64,000 nt of DNA from Halorarum halophilum (GTDB lineage Archaea; Halobacteriota; Halobacteria; Halobacteriales; Haloferacaceae): the NCBI RefSeq assembly GCF_013401515.1, contig NZ_CP058529.1, positions 434,001 to 498,000 on the forward strand, read 5' to 3'. A program made the translations under genes and the position numbers. Shown here piece by piece: positions 1,654 to 37,969 of the stretch (position 1 is its first letter; every line of letters begins with the position of its first letter). The notes under the pieces are model-generated. The model did not search any database. It was not told the DNA's origin and worked only from the letters and a program-made list of their open reading frames with translations.

Positions 1654-1790
1654 CGACCCGGTCCGCTCGACGGAGCCCGGATTCGATGGCCGAACGGGAC
1701 AGTTCGCGCCCGTCAGCGCTCGTCCACGTCCGCCCGGTCTCGGCGACGTGAACACACCGGGTTCATGGACGCCGGCGGAGAGCGGCTCGC

Positions 1791-2309
1791 ATGGTCGAAC
1801 TCCAGTTGCTCGTCGGCGGCGTCGCCGCGACGGTCGTCCTGCTCGTGTTCAGCGCCTTCTTCTCGAGCAGCGAGATCGCCATCTTCTCGCTCGCGCCCGA
1901 GTGGATCGGCCAGCGCTCGGACGCCGGTGACGAGAGCGCGAGGGTCCTCGAATCGCTCCGTGCCGATCCGCACCGGCTGCTCGTGACCATCCTCGTCGGG
2001 AACAACGTCGTCAACGTCGCCGTCTCCAGCATCGTCACGCTCCTGCTCGCATCGTACCTGCCCGGTGGGGTCGCCGTGACCGTGGCGACGGCGCTCGTCA
2101 GCGCTGTCGTGCTCGTGTTCGGCGAGATCGTCCCGAAGGCGTACGGCCTGGGCAACAAGGAGGAGTGGGCGCTTCGCGTGGCGGTCCCGATTCGGTTGGT
2201 CGAGCGTACGCTCTCGCCGCTCGTGACCGTGTTCGACGTGGTCACCCGTCGGATGGCGGAGGCGATCGGGGGGAGCGGGGAGATCGAACTGCTGGTGGTC
2301 GACGAGTAG
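1791..2309 (+). CDS. DUF21 (CNNM-type) transmembrane protein without CBS domains
   Basis: 172 residues. Hydrophobic segments near residues 8-30, 60-90 and 90-115 match the DUF21/CNNM transmembrane domain, including a SSSEIAIFSL-type start and a FGEIVPKAYG motif. Full-length CNNM/CorC-like proteins continue into a CBS pair and a CorC/HlyC domain; here the protein ends soon after the transmembrane domain with an acidic tail (ELLVVDE). Family members are implicated in Mg2+ or other cation transport; that role is inferred. The stop lies 25 nt before the convergent nucleotidyltransferase. It may be a natural short form or a truncation; I see no CBS-like remnant in the short gap that follows. Confidence 0.7.
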   Translation: MVELQLLVGGVAATVVLLVFSAFFSSSEIAIFSLAPEWIGQRSDAGDESARVLESLRADPHRLLVTILVGNNVVNVAVSSIVTLLLASYLPGGVAVTVATALVSAVVLVFGEIVPKAYGLGNKEEWALRVAVPIRLVERTLSPLVTVFDVVTRRMAEAIGGSGEIELLVVDE

Positions 2310-2334
2310 GCGTTCAGGAGGGGGACGCACCGAC

Positions 2335-3303
2335 CTAGACGCCGTTCGTCAGGTGTGAGTGCGCGCCGATGAGCGCTCCCGCGAGGTCCAGCCCGGTGAC
2401 CGACGTCTCCTCGTCGATGATGGACCGGCGGACGTCGGCGTTGGAGATCGTGGCGTTGCGGAACACGACTGACTCGTCGAGCGACGAGTCGGTGATCTCC
2501 GCGCCGGCCATGACGAAGACGTTCTCGCCCAGCGTCGTGTTCTTCACCGTCGCGTCCGGGTGTACCAGGTTCTCGCCGTCGAGCTCCCAGGCGACCGCGT
2601 CGAGGTACGAGTCCGGCGTGCCGATGTCGAACCAGGCGCCGTCGAACGTGTACGCGAACACGTCGCGCCGGTTCTGGAGCCACTGGACGAACCACCCCGG
2701 CTCGTCGGGGTTGTTGCCGTCCGAGAGGTAGGTCTCGAGCAGGTCGAGGACCTCCCGCGGGTAGGCGTAGCAGGCGACCGAGACCAGCGTGCTGTTCGGG
2801 TCGTCGGGTTTCTCCTGGAAGTCGACGACCTGATCGCCGTCGAGTTCGACGAGCCCGTAGTTCTTCGCGCGCTCCCGGGACCCGACGTCGTACGCCGCGA
2901 TGGTCGTCTCGCCCTTGCGTTCGAAGTAGTCGACGAAGTCGGCGATGTCGAACGAGAGGAGGTTGTCGCCGGCGACGACGATCAGGTCGTCGTCGACGCC
3001 CTCGCGGTCGACGAGCTGTGCGAGCGCGCCGATGACGCCGAACTTCTCCGACTCCTCGGAGGTGTCCTCGATGGAGAGTTTGGGCTTCTCGAACCCGGAG
3101 TCAGCGAGGTATTCCTCGAACTGCTCCGCGAACCGTTCGTTCGTGGACACGAACACCTCGTCGACGCGGTCGTCGGCCTCGAGATCGGAGAATATCTGGT
3201 CGATGACCGTCCCCTCGCCGACGGGGAGGAACATCTTGGGCCTGTGACGCGTGATCGGCCACAGGCGCGTGGCGAAGCCGCCGGCGAGCACGACTGCCTT
3301 CAT
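2335..3303 (-). CDS. sugar-phosphate nucleotidyltransferase
   Basis: 322 residues from ATG 3303. The N-terminus carries GGFATRLWPITRHRPK (residues 8-23), the nucleotide-binding signature of NDP-sugar pyrophosphorylases, and VVAGDNLL is the conserved Mg2+/substrate strand. The C-terminal 80 residues (TVKNTTLGENVFVMAGAEI onward) look like left-handed beta-helix repeats. The reaction is NTP plus sugar-1-phosphate to NDP-sugar plus pyrophosphate; the usual substrate is glucose-1-phosphate, but base and sugar cannot be decided from sequence. Such enzymes supply surface N-glycosylation in haloarchaea. A TATA-like element 26 nt upstream supports a leaderless start. Confidence 0.8.
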   Translation of the reverse strand: MKAVVLAGGFATRLWPITRHRPKMFLPVGEGTVIDQIFSDLEADDRVDEVFVSTNERFAEQFEEYLADSGFEKPKLSIEDTSEESEKFGVIGALAQLVDREGVDDDLIVVAGDNLLSFDIADFVDYFERKGETTIAAYDVGSRERAKNYGLVELDGDQVVDFQEKPDDPNSTLVSVACYAYPREVLDLLETYLSDGNNPDEPGWFVQWLQNRRDVFAYTFDGAWFDIGTPDSYLDAVAWELDGENLVHPDATVKNTTLGENVFVMAGAEITDSSLDESVVFRNATISNADVRRSIIDEETSVTGLDLAGALIGAHSHLTNGV

Positions 3304-3325
3304 ACCTTTCGTAATCCGCTGGGGC

Positions 3326-3334
3326 GGTTAAGGC
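3326..3334 (-). promoter_or_regulatory. TATA-like element of the nucleotidyltransferase gene
   Basis: On the minus strand the sequence reads GCCTTAACC, centred about 27 nt before the ATG at 3303. This is the spacing expected for a haloarchaeal promoter driving a leaderless transcript. Confidence 0.45.
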
Positions 3335-3396
3335 CTTTTTCCTCTCGCCTGCCGGGTTGCGAAAGCGTCACCTTCCCCCGGCTGCTCCCGACAGGT

Positions 3397-3675
3397 ATGC
3401 CAGAGCGGACGACCCGTCAGCGGATCGCCGACGAGCTCCGGGAGGATGTGGCGACGGCCGGGGTCCTCTCGACCCGTCTCGACGTCCCGGCGCCCGAGGT
3501 GTACGAGCACGTCCGGCACGTGGCACGTTCCCTGGAGGACGAGGAGCTCCTCGTCTCCCCTCCGGAGTGTCGCGACTGTGGCTTCTCGGGGTTCGACGAC
3601 CCAGTGAACGCCCCCTCACGGTGTCCGGAGTGCCGGAGCGAGAACCTGGCCGAGGCCGCGTTCAAGATCGAGTGA
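3397..3675 (+). CDS. small transcriptional regulator, winged HTH plus Zn-ribbon
   Basis: 92 residues from ATG 3397. Residues 1-50 resemble a winged helix-turn-helix (TRQRIADELRED, then VLSTRLDVPAPEVYEHVRHVARSL). Residues 55-85 hold CRDCGF and CPECRSE, four cysteines in two CxxC knuckles typical of a zinc ribbon. This matches predicted archaeal HTH/Zn-ribbon regulators; the target is unknown. It is divergent from the nucleotidyltransferase with about 90 nt between them, so it might control that gene, but this is only inference. Confidence 0.7.
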   Translation: MPERTTRQRIADELREDVATAGVLSTRLDVPAPEVYEHVRHVARSLEDEELLVSPPECRDCGFSGFDDPVNAPSRCPECRSENLAEAAFKIE

Positions 3676-3787
3676 GGACGCTGCACGCCACGGCACGTAT
3701 CTTCGTCACGCCCGACCACGGTAGCGAGGCCCAGTCGTGTTCACGGTTGTCCACACGGGGTCGGATCGCTATTGTGTATACGTGGAG

Positions 3788-3796
3788 TCTTTAACC
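3788..3796 (+). promoter_or_regulatory. TATA-like element of the small membrane protein gene
   Basis: TCTTTAACC lies about 28 nt before ATG 3820. It supports that ATG over the in-frame GTG/ATG-like codons further upstream. Confidence 0.45.
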
Positions 3797-3819
3797 ACGC
3801 TGGCGACAGATCGGCACGT

Positions 3820-4095
3820 ATGGCACTCGAGACCCGATCGGTGTTCGCCATCGTCGGGGTGGTGTTCCTGTCGGTCGGAACCGCCCTCCACGCTTCCGAG
3901 CGCACTGGGCCGGGCCTGCTCTGCCTGACCGTTGGGTTCCTCTTCGCGGGTGGGTGGGCGTTCCTCGGGATGGAACTCGCGCGGAACGGCGAGGCAAGCA
4001 CGCCCGCGGAGACGTACCTCTCGGGGGGGATGGCGGCGATGACGTTGGCGCTGTACTTCGGGATCCGAACGCACGAAACGATGTTCAGTCGATGA
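3820..4095 (+). CDS. small membrane protein of unknown function
   Basis: 91 residues from ATG 3820. Three hydrophobic segments (about residues 7-22, 30-50 and 68-84) separated by short polar loops suggest an integral membrane protein. I recognise no family. The start was chosen because a TATA-like element lies at leaderless distance. It stands alone between the HTH/Zn-ribbon regulator and the peptide ABC operon. Confidence 0.65.
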   Translation: MALETRSVFAIVGVVFLSVGTALHASERTGPGLLCLTVGFLFAGGWAFLGMELARNGEASTPAETYLSGGMAAMTLALYFGIRTHETMFSR

Positions 4096-35713: not shown

Positions 35714-37789
35714 GTGATCAAGTTCGGACGCGACGGCGAGGACCTCCTCGTCCAGGACGACATCGAGGACGTCGTCTTCCGTATCGACACTCGCGGCGCA
35801 GAGACGCGGTCGGCGGACCCGGACCGGTTCGTGTTCCCGGTCGACTCGGCCGTGGCGTTCGAGACCGACCACCTGGCGTTCCGAAAGCCCGTCTCGGTGT
35901 ACGTCCGTCGCGACGGGGAACTCGTCAACTCCTGCCCGCCGGGGCAGACGACGACCGTCTCGGACGGCCGGTACGAACTCGAGATCTCCCCCGCGCCGAT
36001 GAAGCTGTACATCAGGCTCGACGGCTCGCTCGAAGTGGGGAGCGAGGGCGGCCGTACTCACCTCCGCTTCGACGGGGCCCGGACCGTCCGGGTCGGCGCA
36101 CGGTCGTTCCACGGTCGGCCGGCCGGGACGGTAACGGTGCCCGAGTCGCCCTCTGGGCTCATGGAGGCGGTCTCGACGTTCGGGTCCGCGCTTGCGACGA
36201 CGTCGCCGGAACGGTCGTTCCCGACGCTCCGCGGTCACCCGCCGCTGGTCGCGTTCGGTGAGGAACGGGACGTCCCGTCGTTCGCCGCCCCGCCGTCGAC
36301 GGGCGTCACGATCGAAGTGCCCGAGGACTGGGGGTCGGTGTACACGGTGGCGACGCTTGCGTACTACCTCGGCGCCTCGGTGGTCCCGGGTGAACGCCCC
36401 CGCGTGACCGCGGCGGGCGCCTCGCACTCCCTCGCCGACGGCCGACTCGCCGAGAACGCGCAGTCGCTCCTCGAACACGTCTTCCTGCTCGACTGCGTGG
36501 TCCGCACGGAGGGGTTCTACGACGTCGACCTGCACGAACGACGGGCGGTCGAGCGTGAGGTCGACATCGACCCCGAAGCGCTGTACGACCTGCCGATCGA
36601 CGAGCGCCTCGCACGCTACCTCGAGATCCCCATCGACCCCCTCTCGGGGTTGCTCGACTGGCACCTCACGACCGACATGGCGGCCGAGCCGGCGAGCGCG
36701 GAACTGCTCCCGTTCGTCGTCAACGACCTCTCCGCCATCAGGGACCCCGCGTCCGTCCCGGAGACGGGGGACCACTACACTGAGTCGCTCGGCGACTTCT
36801 ACCGCTCGGACGACGGCGAGGAGGACGACGAGGACGTTCCGACGGGACGGGTCGACAGGACCGCGTTCCAGGACGAGACGGTCGTCACCCCGGAGCCGGT
36901 CGACACCGTCGGCCACACCTGGATCGGCGACGGCTACCCGGTCGGCGCGTCGAAGCCCACCGTCGGCGCGTACCGCCGGCGCATCGACCAGCCTGCCTCG
37001 GAGTCGCGCGTCATCGACGTCCAGGTCGTCTGCAACGAGGCGGAGATGCGCGAGGAGACAGAACAGCTGTACGGCTTCCGGGACTACCTCGAGTTCGAGA
37101 TCGACATCGTCTACGACCTCGCGCGCGAGGAGCTCCGCGAACTCCTCGCCGACGACCACGACTTCTTCCACTTCGTCGGCCACGTCGACGCCGAGGGCAT
37201 GAAGTGTACTGACGGCTACCTCGACCTCCACACGCTGGAGGAGACGGGCGTGAAGGCGTTCCTGCTGAACGCCTGCACTTCGTACGCGCAGGGGATGCAG
37301 CTGGTCCACGCCGGCAGCATCGGCGGTCTCGTGACGACGACCGACGTTGGGAACATCATGGCGACGAACGCCGGCCGGACGATGGCGCGCCTGCTCGACT
37401 ACGGCTTCGACCTCCACGGCGTGCTGGACGTGGTGAAGAAGGTCCACGTCGTCGGCGGTGCGTACTCGGTCGTCGGCGACGCCGGTGTGACGCTCTGTCA
37501 GGCGAGTAGCGGAACGCCAGCACTCGTCGAGATCAACACGCGGGAGAAGCCCTCCGAGGATTCGTTCGAGTTGCTACATCGCGTGTACACGACGAGGAAC
37601 TACAACGTCGGGAGCCTGTTCGTAGACCACTTCGCCGGTGGCGGAACCCACTACGTCGTCGGTGGCCCACCGCATTCACTCGTAGTGTCAAGGGAGGAAC
37701 TCAGACGTTCTGCGACGGAACGACGGACACCAGTAATACTCGATCACGAACTGCGGTGGTCGGACGAACTGAACTTCGACGAATTCTGA
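35714..37789 (+). CDS. large protein with C-terminal CHAT-like (caspase-family) protease domain
   Basis: 691 residues from GTG 35714. Residues 1-130 look beta-rich (FRIDTRGAETR, VSVYVRRDGELVNS). A middle region of unclear fold (130-430) includes an acidic linker near 366-376. Residues about 430-600 resemble a CHAT domain: FFHFVGH with His490, then AFLLNACTSYAQGMQLVHAGSIGGLVTT with Cys521, the order and spacing of the caspase-type dyad. CHAT proteins are predicted cysteine proteases, some used in bacterial gasdermin or CRISPR-associated immunity. No membrane segment seen. The last ~40 codons are lower in GC. The stop touches the convergent small gene. Function unknown; CHAT call is by motif only. 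Confidence 0.75.
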   Translation: MIKFGRDGEDLLVQDDIEDVVFRIDTRGAETRSADPDRFVFPVDSAVAFETDHLAFRKPVSVYVRRDGELVNSCPPGQTTTVSDGRYELEISPAPMKLYIRLDGSLEVGSEGGRTHLRFDGARTVRVGARSFHGRPAGTVTVPESPSGLMEAVSTFGSALATTSPERSFPTLRGHPPLVAFGEERDVPSFAAPPSTGVTIEVPEDWGSVYTVATLAYYLGASVVPGERPRVTAAGASHSLADGRLAENAQSLLEHVFLLDCVVRTEGFYDVDLHERRAVEREVDIDPEALYDLPIDERLARYLEIPIDPLSGLLDWHLTTDMAAEPASAELLPFVVNDLSAIRDPASVPETGDHYTESLGDFYRSDDGEEDDEDVPTGRVDRTAFQDETVVTPEPVDTVGHTWIGDGYPVGASKPTVGAYRRRIDQPASESRVIDVQVVCNEAEMREETEQLYGFRDYLEFEIDIVYDLAREELRELLADDHDFFHFVGHVDAEGMKCTDGYLDLHTLEETGVKAFLLNACTSYAQGMQLVHAGSIGGLVTTTDVGNIMATNAGRTMARLLDYGFDLHGVLDVVKKVHVVGGAYSVVGDAGVTLCQASSGTPALVEINTREKPSEDSFELLHRVYTTRNYNVGSLFVDHFAGGGTHYVVGGPPHSLVVSREELRRSATERRTPVILDHELRWSDELNFDEF

Positions 37790-37921
37790 TTACGGGCCGT
37801 TGACCGCCGAGACGGTCGCTGCTGCGTTGCTCGCGCTGGCGAGCAGCATGGTCATCATGAAGACGGCGCCGCATGCCTTCGGGTGCTCCGCGAGGTACGT
37901 CTTGACCGGGTTGTCGGACAT
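37790..37921 (-). CDS. 43-residue hydrophobic small protein, convergent with the CHAT-like gene
   Basis: ATG 37919-37921 to TAA at 37790-37792, whose bases begin directly after the stop of the CHAT-like gene. The product has a polar start (MSDNPVKTYLAEHPKACG), one hydrophobic stretch (about residues 19-37, with MMTMLLASASNAAA) and ends VNGP. A single membrane helix or an exported peptide is likely. It resembles, from memory, very short haloarchaeal proteins of the DUF7503 kind; this is unverified. Its promoter carries an exact 20-bp palindrome. It is too short for most gene finders but has good codon bias and a clear promoter. Confidence 0.7.
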   Translation of the reverse strand: MSDNPVKTYLAEHPKACGAVFMMTMLLASASNAAATVSAVNGP

Positions 37922-37949: not shown

Positions 37950-37969
37950 GAATATTTACCTAAATATTC
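37950..37969. promoter_or_regulatory. perfect 20-bp palindrome overlapping the TATA box of the small-protein gene
   Basis: GAATATTTACCTAAATATTC is an exact inverted repeat (9-bp arms around CC/GG) lying 29-48 nt upstream of ATG 37921. It contains a TATA-like core and would be a natural operator for a dimeric repressor. A partial copy (TATTTAGGTAA) is found at 38063-38073. Confidence 0.6.

Follow-up and report, generated by a model that had tools for sequence, protein, structure and literature searches.

The window, a 64,000-nt stretch of the Halorarum halophilum genome, contains a predicted CHAT-type cysteine protease gene and, converging on it, a gene for a 43-residue micro-protein of the family DUF7503. 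The two proteins are almost certainly partners, because the same tail-to-tail and often stop-to-stop pairing is found in nearly all of the salt-loving archaea sampled; perhaps they are related as protease and substrate. Both open reading frames and their junction lie exactly where the original prediction had placed them (Table 1): the TGA of the protease gene ends at position 37789 and the TTA of the small gene (TAA on the minus strand) begins at 37790, so that the stop codons abut with a gap of 0. The flanking genes, named from sequence, agree with the trkH and gatA reported earlier: a gene for a TrkH-like membrane protein precedes the pair, and one for a GatA-like amidase follows it. This setting is incidental, and the recurrent neighbor at other loci is an upstream DUF7504 gene. 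Comparison of the small open reading frame with its closest relative, from a genome of the same genus, gave a dN of 0.064 against a dS of 0.55, and it is therefore regarded as a constrained protein-coding gene.

Table 1. Positions of the protease and DUF7503 features within the 64,000-nt window
Feature	Position	Strand	Remarks
CHAT-type (caspase-fold) cysteine protease gene, predicted	35714..37789	+	691 aa, GTG start, stop TGA
N-terminal half, residues 1-350	35714..36763	+	Beta-rich domain and alpha/beta domain; AlphaFold2 pLDDT 94.5
CHAT/caspase-fold protease domain	36881..37513	+	About residues 390-600; Foldseek and hhalign
Predicted catalytic His490 codon (HFVGH)	37181..37183	+	Directly after strand 482-488
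Predicted catalytic Cys521 codon (LLNAC)	37274..37276	+	Directly after strand 513-519
DUF7503 micro-protein gene	37790..37921	-	43 aa, ATG start, single hydrophobic helix, convergent with the protease gene
C-terminal Gly-Pro of the micro-protein	37793..37798	-	GP end in 158/168 pairs
Hydrophobic helix, residues 16-35	37817..37876	-	Consensus MxGxLFTxxLLLSQAGxxAA
E-H-P-K motif, residues 12-15	37877..37888	-	Just ahead of the helix; putative cleavage site
AT-rich inverted repeat GAATATTTA-cc-TAAATATTC	37950..37969	-	Perfect 9-bp arms, -48 to -29 of the small gene

The structure of the large protein was modeled with AlphaFold2 from 64 sequences (pLDDT 89.4, pTM 0.89). A Foldseek search with this model retrieved gingipain R, separase, SAVED-CHAT, and TPR-CHAT at E-values of 3e-6 to 1e-4, and caspases were also matched at weaker E-values. 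Profile-profile comparison with archaeal CHAT proteins using hhalign (probability 97.1, E-value 7e-11) aligned the HFVGH and LLNAC sequences with the His and Cys motifs of those proteins. In the model, the His (xGH) and the Cys (NxC) each follow a core strand, and the two strands are consecutive, as in caspases; H490 and C521 were invariant in 190 of the 190 relatives scored. The Pfam CHAT model (PF12770) matched 12 of 37 relatives, the best with an E-value of 4e-4 and 20.3 bits against a cut-off of 24, and both relatives with scores shown fell under the curated cut-off. The protein of the window itself was unmatched by Pfam CHAT and is unnamed by Pfam and NCBIfam, and no real match came from searching the PDB sequences with either the protein or its profile. 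On the strength of the model, the profile comparison, and the total conservation of the two residues, the large protein is assigned a CHAT/caspase fold with a His/Cys dyad, and peptidase activity is predicted. Both the caspase-type region and the His490/Cys521 pair named in the original prediction were thus recovered in the model.

The N-terminal half of the protein, which carries the near-invariant motifs GxRSxH and PERSxPTLRGHPP, probably has a regulatory role. A fold search with this half gave no PDB match at E<=0.001, and the weak matches were mostly to beta-rich enzymes. This search lent no support to the idea, which we had considered, that the N-terminal half is a second, inactive caspase domain.

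Among 147 Halobacteriales genomes, the protease family was found in 130 (88%) and DUF7503 in 123; both were present in 122 genomes, the protease only in 8, DUF7503 only in 1 (a marginal match), and neither in 16. Where the two matches lay close together, 91 of the 93 listed were convergent. For 40 DUF7503 genes that had no listed protease, the loci were fetched, and a convergent protease gene was located alongside in 39, the remaining locus being at a contig end. Conversely, the small gene was present at 74 of 80 named loci chosen by the protease alone. The pairing has persisted in deeply diverged lineages, from many families and dozens of genera, even as the other flanking genes change (neighboring genes were clustered using codon-bias gene calls). 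The partnership, for which the original prediction had proposed a test, is therefore fixed across the Halobacteria, and a small gene living free of the large one is the exception. Five protease paralogues are encoded in the genome from which the window comes; three of them face a DUF7503 gene, and a fourth is opposed by a diverged version of 63 aa that overlaps the protease stop by 4 bases. In the remaining paralogue, both dyad residues have been lost, and the gene facing it is unrelated. Beyond the Halobacteriales, distant relatives of the protease were found in only one family of the phylum sample. The protease is also encoded on 25 plasmid records; its annotation there is mostly hypothetical protein, with one record labeled caspase family and another CHAT domain-containing.

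Several loci depart from the usual arrangement. Twenty-four dyad-bearing relatives have no adjacent small gene, including a subfamily (B) in genomes without a DUF7503 match (e.g., G003 and G098); the protease must therefore do other work or act in trans. Two co-directional protease copies in tandem, with an intact dyad and without a small gene, were observed at five loci (L133, L134, L140, L187, and L195). Tandem DUF7503 genes, two at one locus, occur at the contig end of G089 (L067/L080), and two neighboring DUF7503 copies lie beside a single protease gene in G056. At L111, L119, and L132, the facing open reading frames end in CTYSGP with a 16-base stop overlap and lack the usual in-frame helix; these could represent alternative small genes or the result of a frameshift. 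Finally, the protease gene of L243 (G133; 1962-4040, plus strand) is followed at its 3' side by a convergent 106-aa open reading frame with HPR and a helix, in which a longer acidic tail replaces the GP end.

The stop-to-stop distance in 168 distinct pairs had a median of 0, with peaks at -4 (42 pairs), 0 (32 pairs), and +1 (18 pairs). The stops lay within -4 to +2 bases of each other in 99 of these pairs, compared with 7 of 95 other convergent pairs taken both from the named loci and from the window (Fisher p about 4e-18), whose median distance was 96; this baseline is approximate, since its genes were called by a simple codon-bias script. So tight a tail-to-tail junction goes well beyond what chance would give, and some protease/DUF7503 pairs have gaps of 50-260 bases.

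The region from -80 to -24 upstream of the 168 small genes is AT-rich. In the window, it contains the inverted repeat listed in Table 1, which is nearly kept in the same-genus relative. Inverted repeats were found upstream of 33 of 167 small genes against a shuffled expectation of about 15 of 167; no shared motif was found among the repeats upstream of these 167 genes, and we therefore claim no family-wide operator. Judging from its upstream sequence, the small gene of the window has its own promoter, possibly including an operator. On the protease side, 56 of 151 testable pairs have a DUF7504 gene (PF24336) immediately upstream, in the same orientation as the protease gene (e.g., L165, 3117-3881, plus strand), and in the window this place is taken by the TrkH-like gene. 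DUF7504 is a multi-copy haloarchaeal family. It may be a third member of the module, but the idea that it is an obligate one was rejected, given its upstream presence in only 56/151 pairs and its many copies elsewhere.

The small protein matched the Pfam family DUF7503 (PF24335) with 49.2 bits against a curated cut-off of 27, and it matched no other family. Motif conservation was counted over 168 non-redundant sequences: Pro14 was conserved in 100%, Arg or Lys at the next position in 98%, and Phe21 in 99%, while Glu or Asp was found three residues ahead of the Arg/Lys, at the P4 place, in 59%. The remainder after the Arg/Lys was 29 residues long in 119 of 166 sequences and free of charged residues in 124 of 166. 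Residues 33-35 read A/V-x-A (A35 in 90%) and are followed by a variable tail that runs to a near-fixed GP; the region ahead of the helix is net acidic. An N-terminus of variable length was dropped as a feature of the family when several starts proved to have been called too far downstream. Two further readings of the sequence are a membrane anchor and a signal peptide in which an A-x-A site precedes a short tail ending in GP; the positive-inside rule would likewise yield an Arg or Lys ahead of a helix.

Association of the small gene with the catalytic half of the large protein was seen in two comparisons. The small gene was present beside 173 of 197 dyad-bearing proteases (168 by profile and five diverged versions by inspection) and beside none of 11 dyad-less paralogues, which keep the N-terminal half and have lost both His and Cys; ten of the latter form one clade and one is a separate row on the tree, so that about two events underlie this correlation. 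The pairwise divergence of DUF7503 was correlated more strongly with that of the CHAT domain (r 0.48) than with that of the N-terminal half (r 0.375), with a bootstrap difference of 0.09 (95% 0.04-0.15), and for distant pairs the correlations were 0.16 and 0.01, respectively, although this modest mirror-tree difference could in part be due to the CHAT domain carrying the better tree signal. Residue-level covariation between the protease and DUF7503 gave no clear contact map, and co-divergence was therefore used at the level of domains. These sequence comparisons are supportive of a link between the small protein and catalysis, albeit not decisively. One of the paralogues with a degenerate protease half is encoded elsewhere in the same genome as the window (L142, C1:2139000-2146000; 1689-3779, minus strand); it and L232-L240 have kept the N-terminal half (SPERSWPTLRGHPP), while the His and Cys are gone. 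To judge from these sequences, the subfamily represents a lineage of pseudo-proteases shared by several genera.

Substrate, toxin, and sensor roles had all been conjectured for the small protein, and several of our observations favor a protease-substrate link. In the reading that we prefer, to which we give about an even chance of being correct, a cytosolic CHAT protease cuts the tiny membrane protein at the invariant P-[R/K] just ahead of its helix. The pair would then constitute a protease-effector module of the Halobacteria. The large protein, with its caspase-type fold and dyad, would reside in the cytosol, where its N-terminal half would hold it in check, as would the upstream DUF7504 protein at many loci; the single helix of the micro-protein would be embedded in the membrane, with the N-terminus on the cytosolic side. 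Once activated, the protease would cut after the Arg/Lys of [E/D]-x-P-[R/K] at the membrane edge and thereby free or re-shape a helix, about 29 residues long and ending in a fixed Gly-Pro, that might then alter the membrane or relay a signal. We infer the substrate relation, the membrane topology, and the outcome. The convergent layout would provide the small gene with a promoter of its own, and the transcripts are probably coupled at their tails. The proposed cleavage site is suggested by the conservation of the motif, by the report that separase cuts after ExxR (PMC9729208), and by the cleavage of bacterial gasdermins after Leu or Arg by neighboring caspase-like proteases (PMC9612521).

The same partnership data and the CHAT-biased co-divergence would also be expected if DUF7503 were a regulator, inhibitor, or membrane anchor that recruits the protease to the membrane or blocks its active site, the true substrate being elsewhere. 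The conserved helix and GP end suit binding, and securin-type regulators of separase are known; however, the dyad is kept in proteases without an adjacent small gene, which would be unexpected unless the regulator acted in trans, and we consider this explanation unlikely. Improbable in our view is a secreted peptide-signal precursor, in which a hydrophobic region and a signal-peptidase-like A-x-A site would release a variable, GP-ended tail of approximately 8 residues to be sensed by the paired receptor in a Rap-Phr-like manner. The A/V-x-A at residues 33-35, the variable tail, and the almost fixed GP end would fit such a precursor, as would the several paralogous receptor-precursor pairs per genome, but the net-acidic N-region is unlike that of usual signal peptides, the N-terminal half of the large protein shows no TPR fold, and both the dyad link and the invariant P-[R/K] would be left unexplained.

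The junction itself raises the question of coupling at the RNA level, since abutting stops would give overlapping 3' ends, so that the mRNA of one gene would act as antisense to that of the other, and the helix peptide would be a type I-like toxin. The piling up of stop distances at -4, 0, and +1 against a median of 96 in other convergent pairs, the separate AT-rich upstream region of the small gene, and the type I toxin-like size of the helix peptide are consistent with this arrangement. Nevertheless, it appears quite improbable: the small protein is strongly constrained at the protein level, pairs with gaps of 50-260 bases exist, and RNA coupling alone fails to explain the absence of the small gene from dyad-less paralogues. 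This absence also speaks against a merely inherited neighborhood, in which an ancestral two-gene block was copied or transferred whole without any functional tie. Several paralogous blocks per genome, the presence of the protease on plasmids, and the co-directional DUF7504 that rides along at many loci would fit such a history, which we nonetheless regard as very improbable, as the pair has been kept across deep divergence while other flanking genes change and the junction is tight with many separate spacings.

An immune role of the kind cited in the original prediction for bacterial CHAT proteases found no support here. PADLOC profiles gave only two isolated weak matches to 37 family members (best E-value 0.04), and no relative of the protease was found in the viral contig collection, so that the protease is not phage-borne in the collection searched; moreover, the protease is present in the majority of genomes and lacks the patchy distribution of a defense gene. 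The original statement that no archaeal system of this form has been described agrees with our finding of no mention of DUF7503, DUF7504, or a CHAT domain together with haloarchaea in the literature searched, most subscription journals and preprints lying outside the search. Metacaspases were present in 5 of 114 archaeal genomes surveyed (PMC3501461), and strong caspase-like activity with a "lack of gene homologues" has been reported for Haloferax volcanii, where it cuts after Asp (LEVD, VEID, and IETD substrates) and its gene is unknown (PMC3615174). H. volcanii carries DUF7503. The protease is perhaps unlikely to be identical with that activity, because the motif found here points to Arg/Lys rather than Asp. 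Carrying the preferred cleavage reading further, the pair could be an archaeal counterpart of the caspase-gasdermin systems, in which a stress or invader signal would lead the CHAT protease to cut the 43-residue micro-protein at [E/D]xP[R/K] and the helix to permeabilize the membrane or signal, and the family could be a major component of the caspase machinery that has long been missing in haloarchaea; we regard this extension as doubtful at present. The caspase literature holds archaea to be largely without caspase homologues, yet a caspase-fold family with a conserved dyad is present in 88% of the Halobacteriales genomes sampled, where it is mostly annotated as hypothetical and is coupled to the DUF7503 micro-protein. 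The pair offers a genetically tractable system for asking about archaeal caspase-like proteolysis in stress or death and about the role of DUF7503.

The Rap-Phr (RRNPP) cassettes of Bacillus combine a paralogous large receptor with a private 40-50-aa precursor at each locus. A paralogous large protein with a private small protein per locus is found here too; however, the large protein is a predicted protease without a detected TPR, the genes are convergent, and secretion is hypothetical. As in the bacterial gasdermin systems with an adjacent caspase-like or CHAT protease (PMC9612521), a protease gene lies beside that of a putative membrane-acting partner, and cleavage after Leu or Arg there fits the Arg/Lys here, whereas the partner there has a gasdermin fold and the systems are patchy defense genes. 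In the Halobacteria, the partner is a 43-aa single helix that matched DUF7503 and showed no gasdermin fold, the genes are convergent and near-universal, and cleavage is proposed from the motif. TPR-CHAT (Csx29), which acts with Csx30 in the type III-E CRISPR Craspase (PMC9729208; Foldseek match 7zoq), shares the CHAT fold, the His/Cys dyad, and a dedicated partner; it differs in the TPR repeats and gRAMP, which are absent here, and in the unrelated N-terminal fold and partner. The SAVED-CHAT (CalpL-type) proteases of type III CRISPR were matched through 8tl0 over about 196 columns, but no SAVED sensor match, anti-sigma partner, or CRISPR context was seen here. Eukaryotic separase, which is regulated by securin, is among the closest solved folds, and its ExxR resembles the ExPR/K of DUF7503, although the identity is about 12%, its role is in the eukaryotic cell cycle, and no cohesin-like substrate or securin is known here. 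Compared with separase and the CHAT-gasdermin pairs, the partner, the gene layout, and the N-terminal fold are new, and the order-wide module of protease and micro-protein is new as a system, assembled from a known kind of protease and a family of unknown function.
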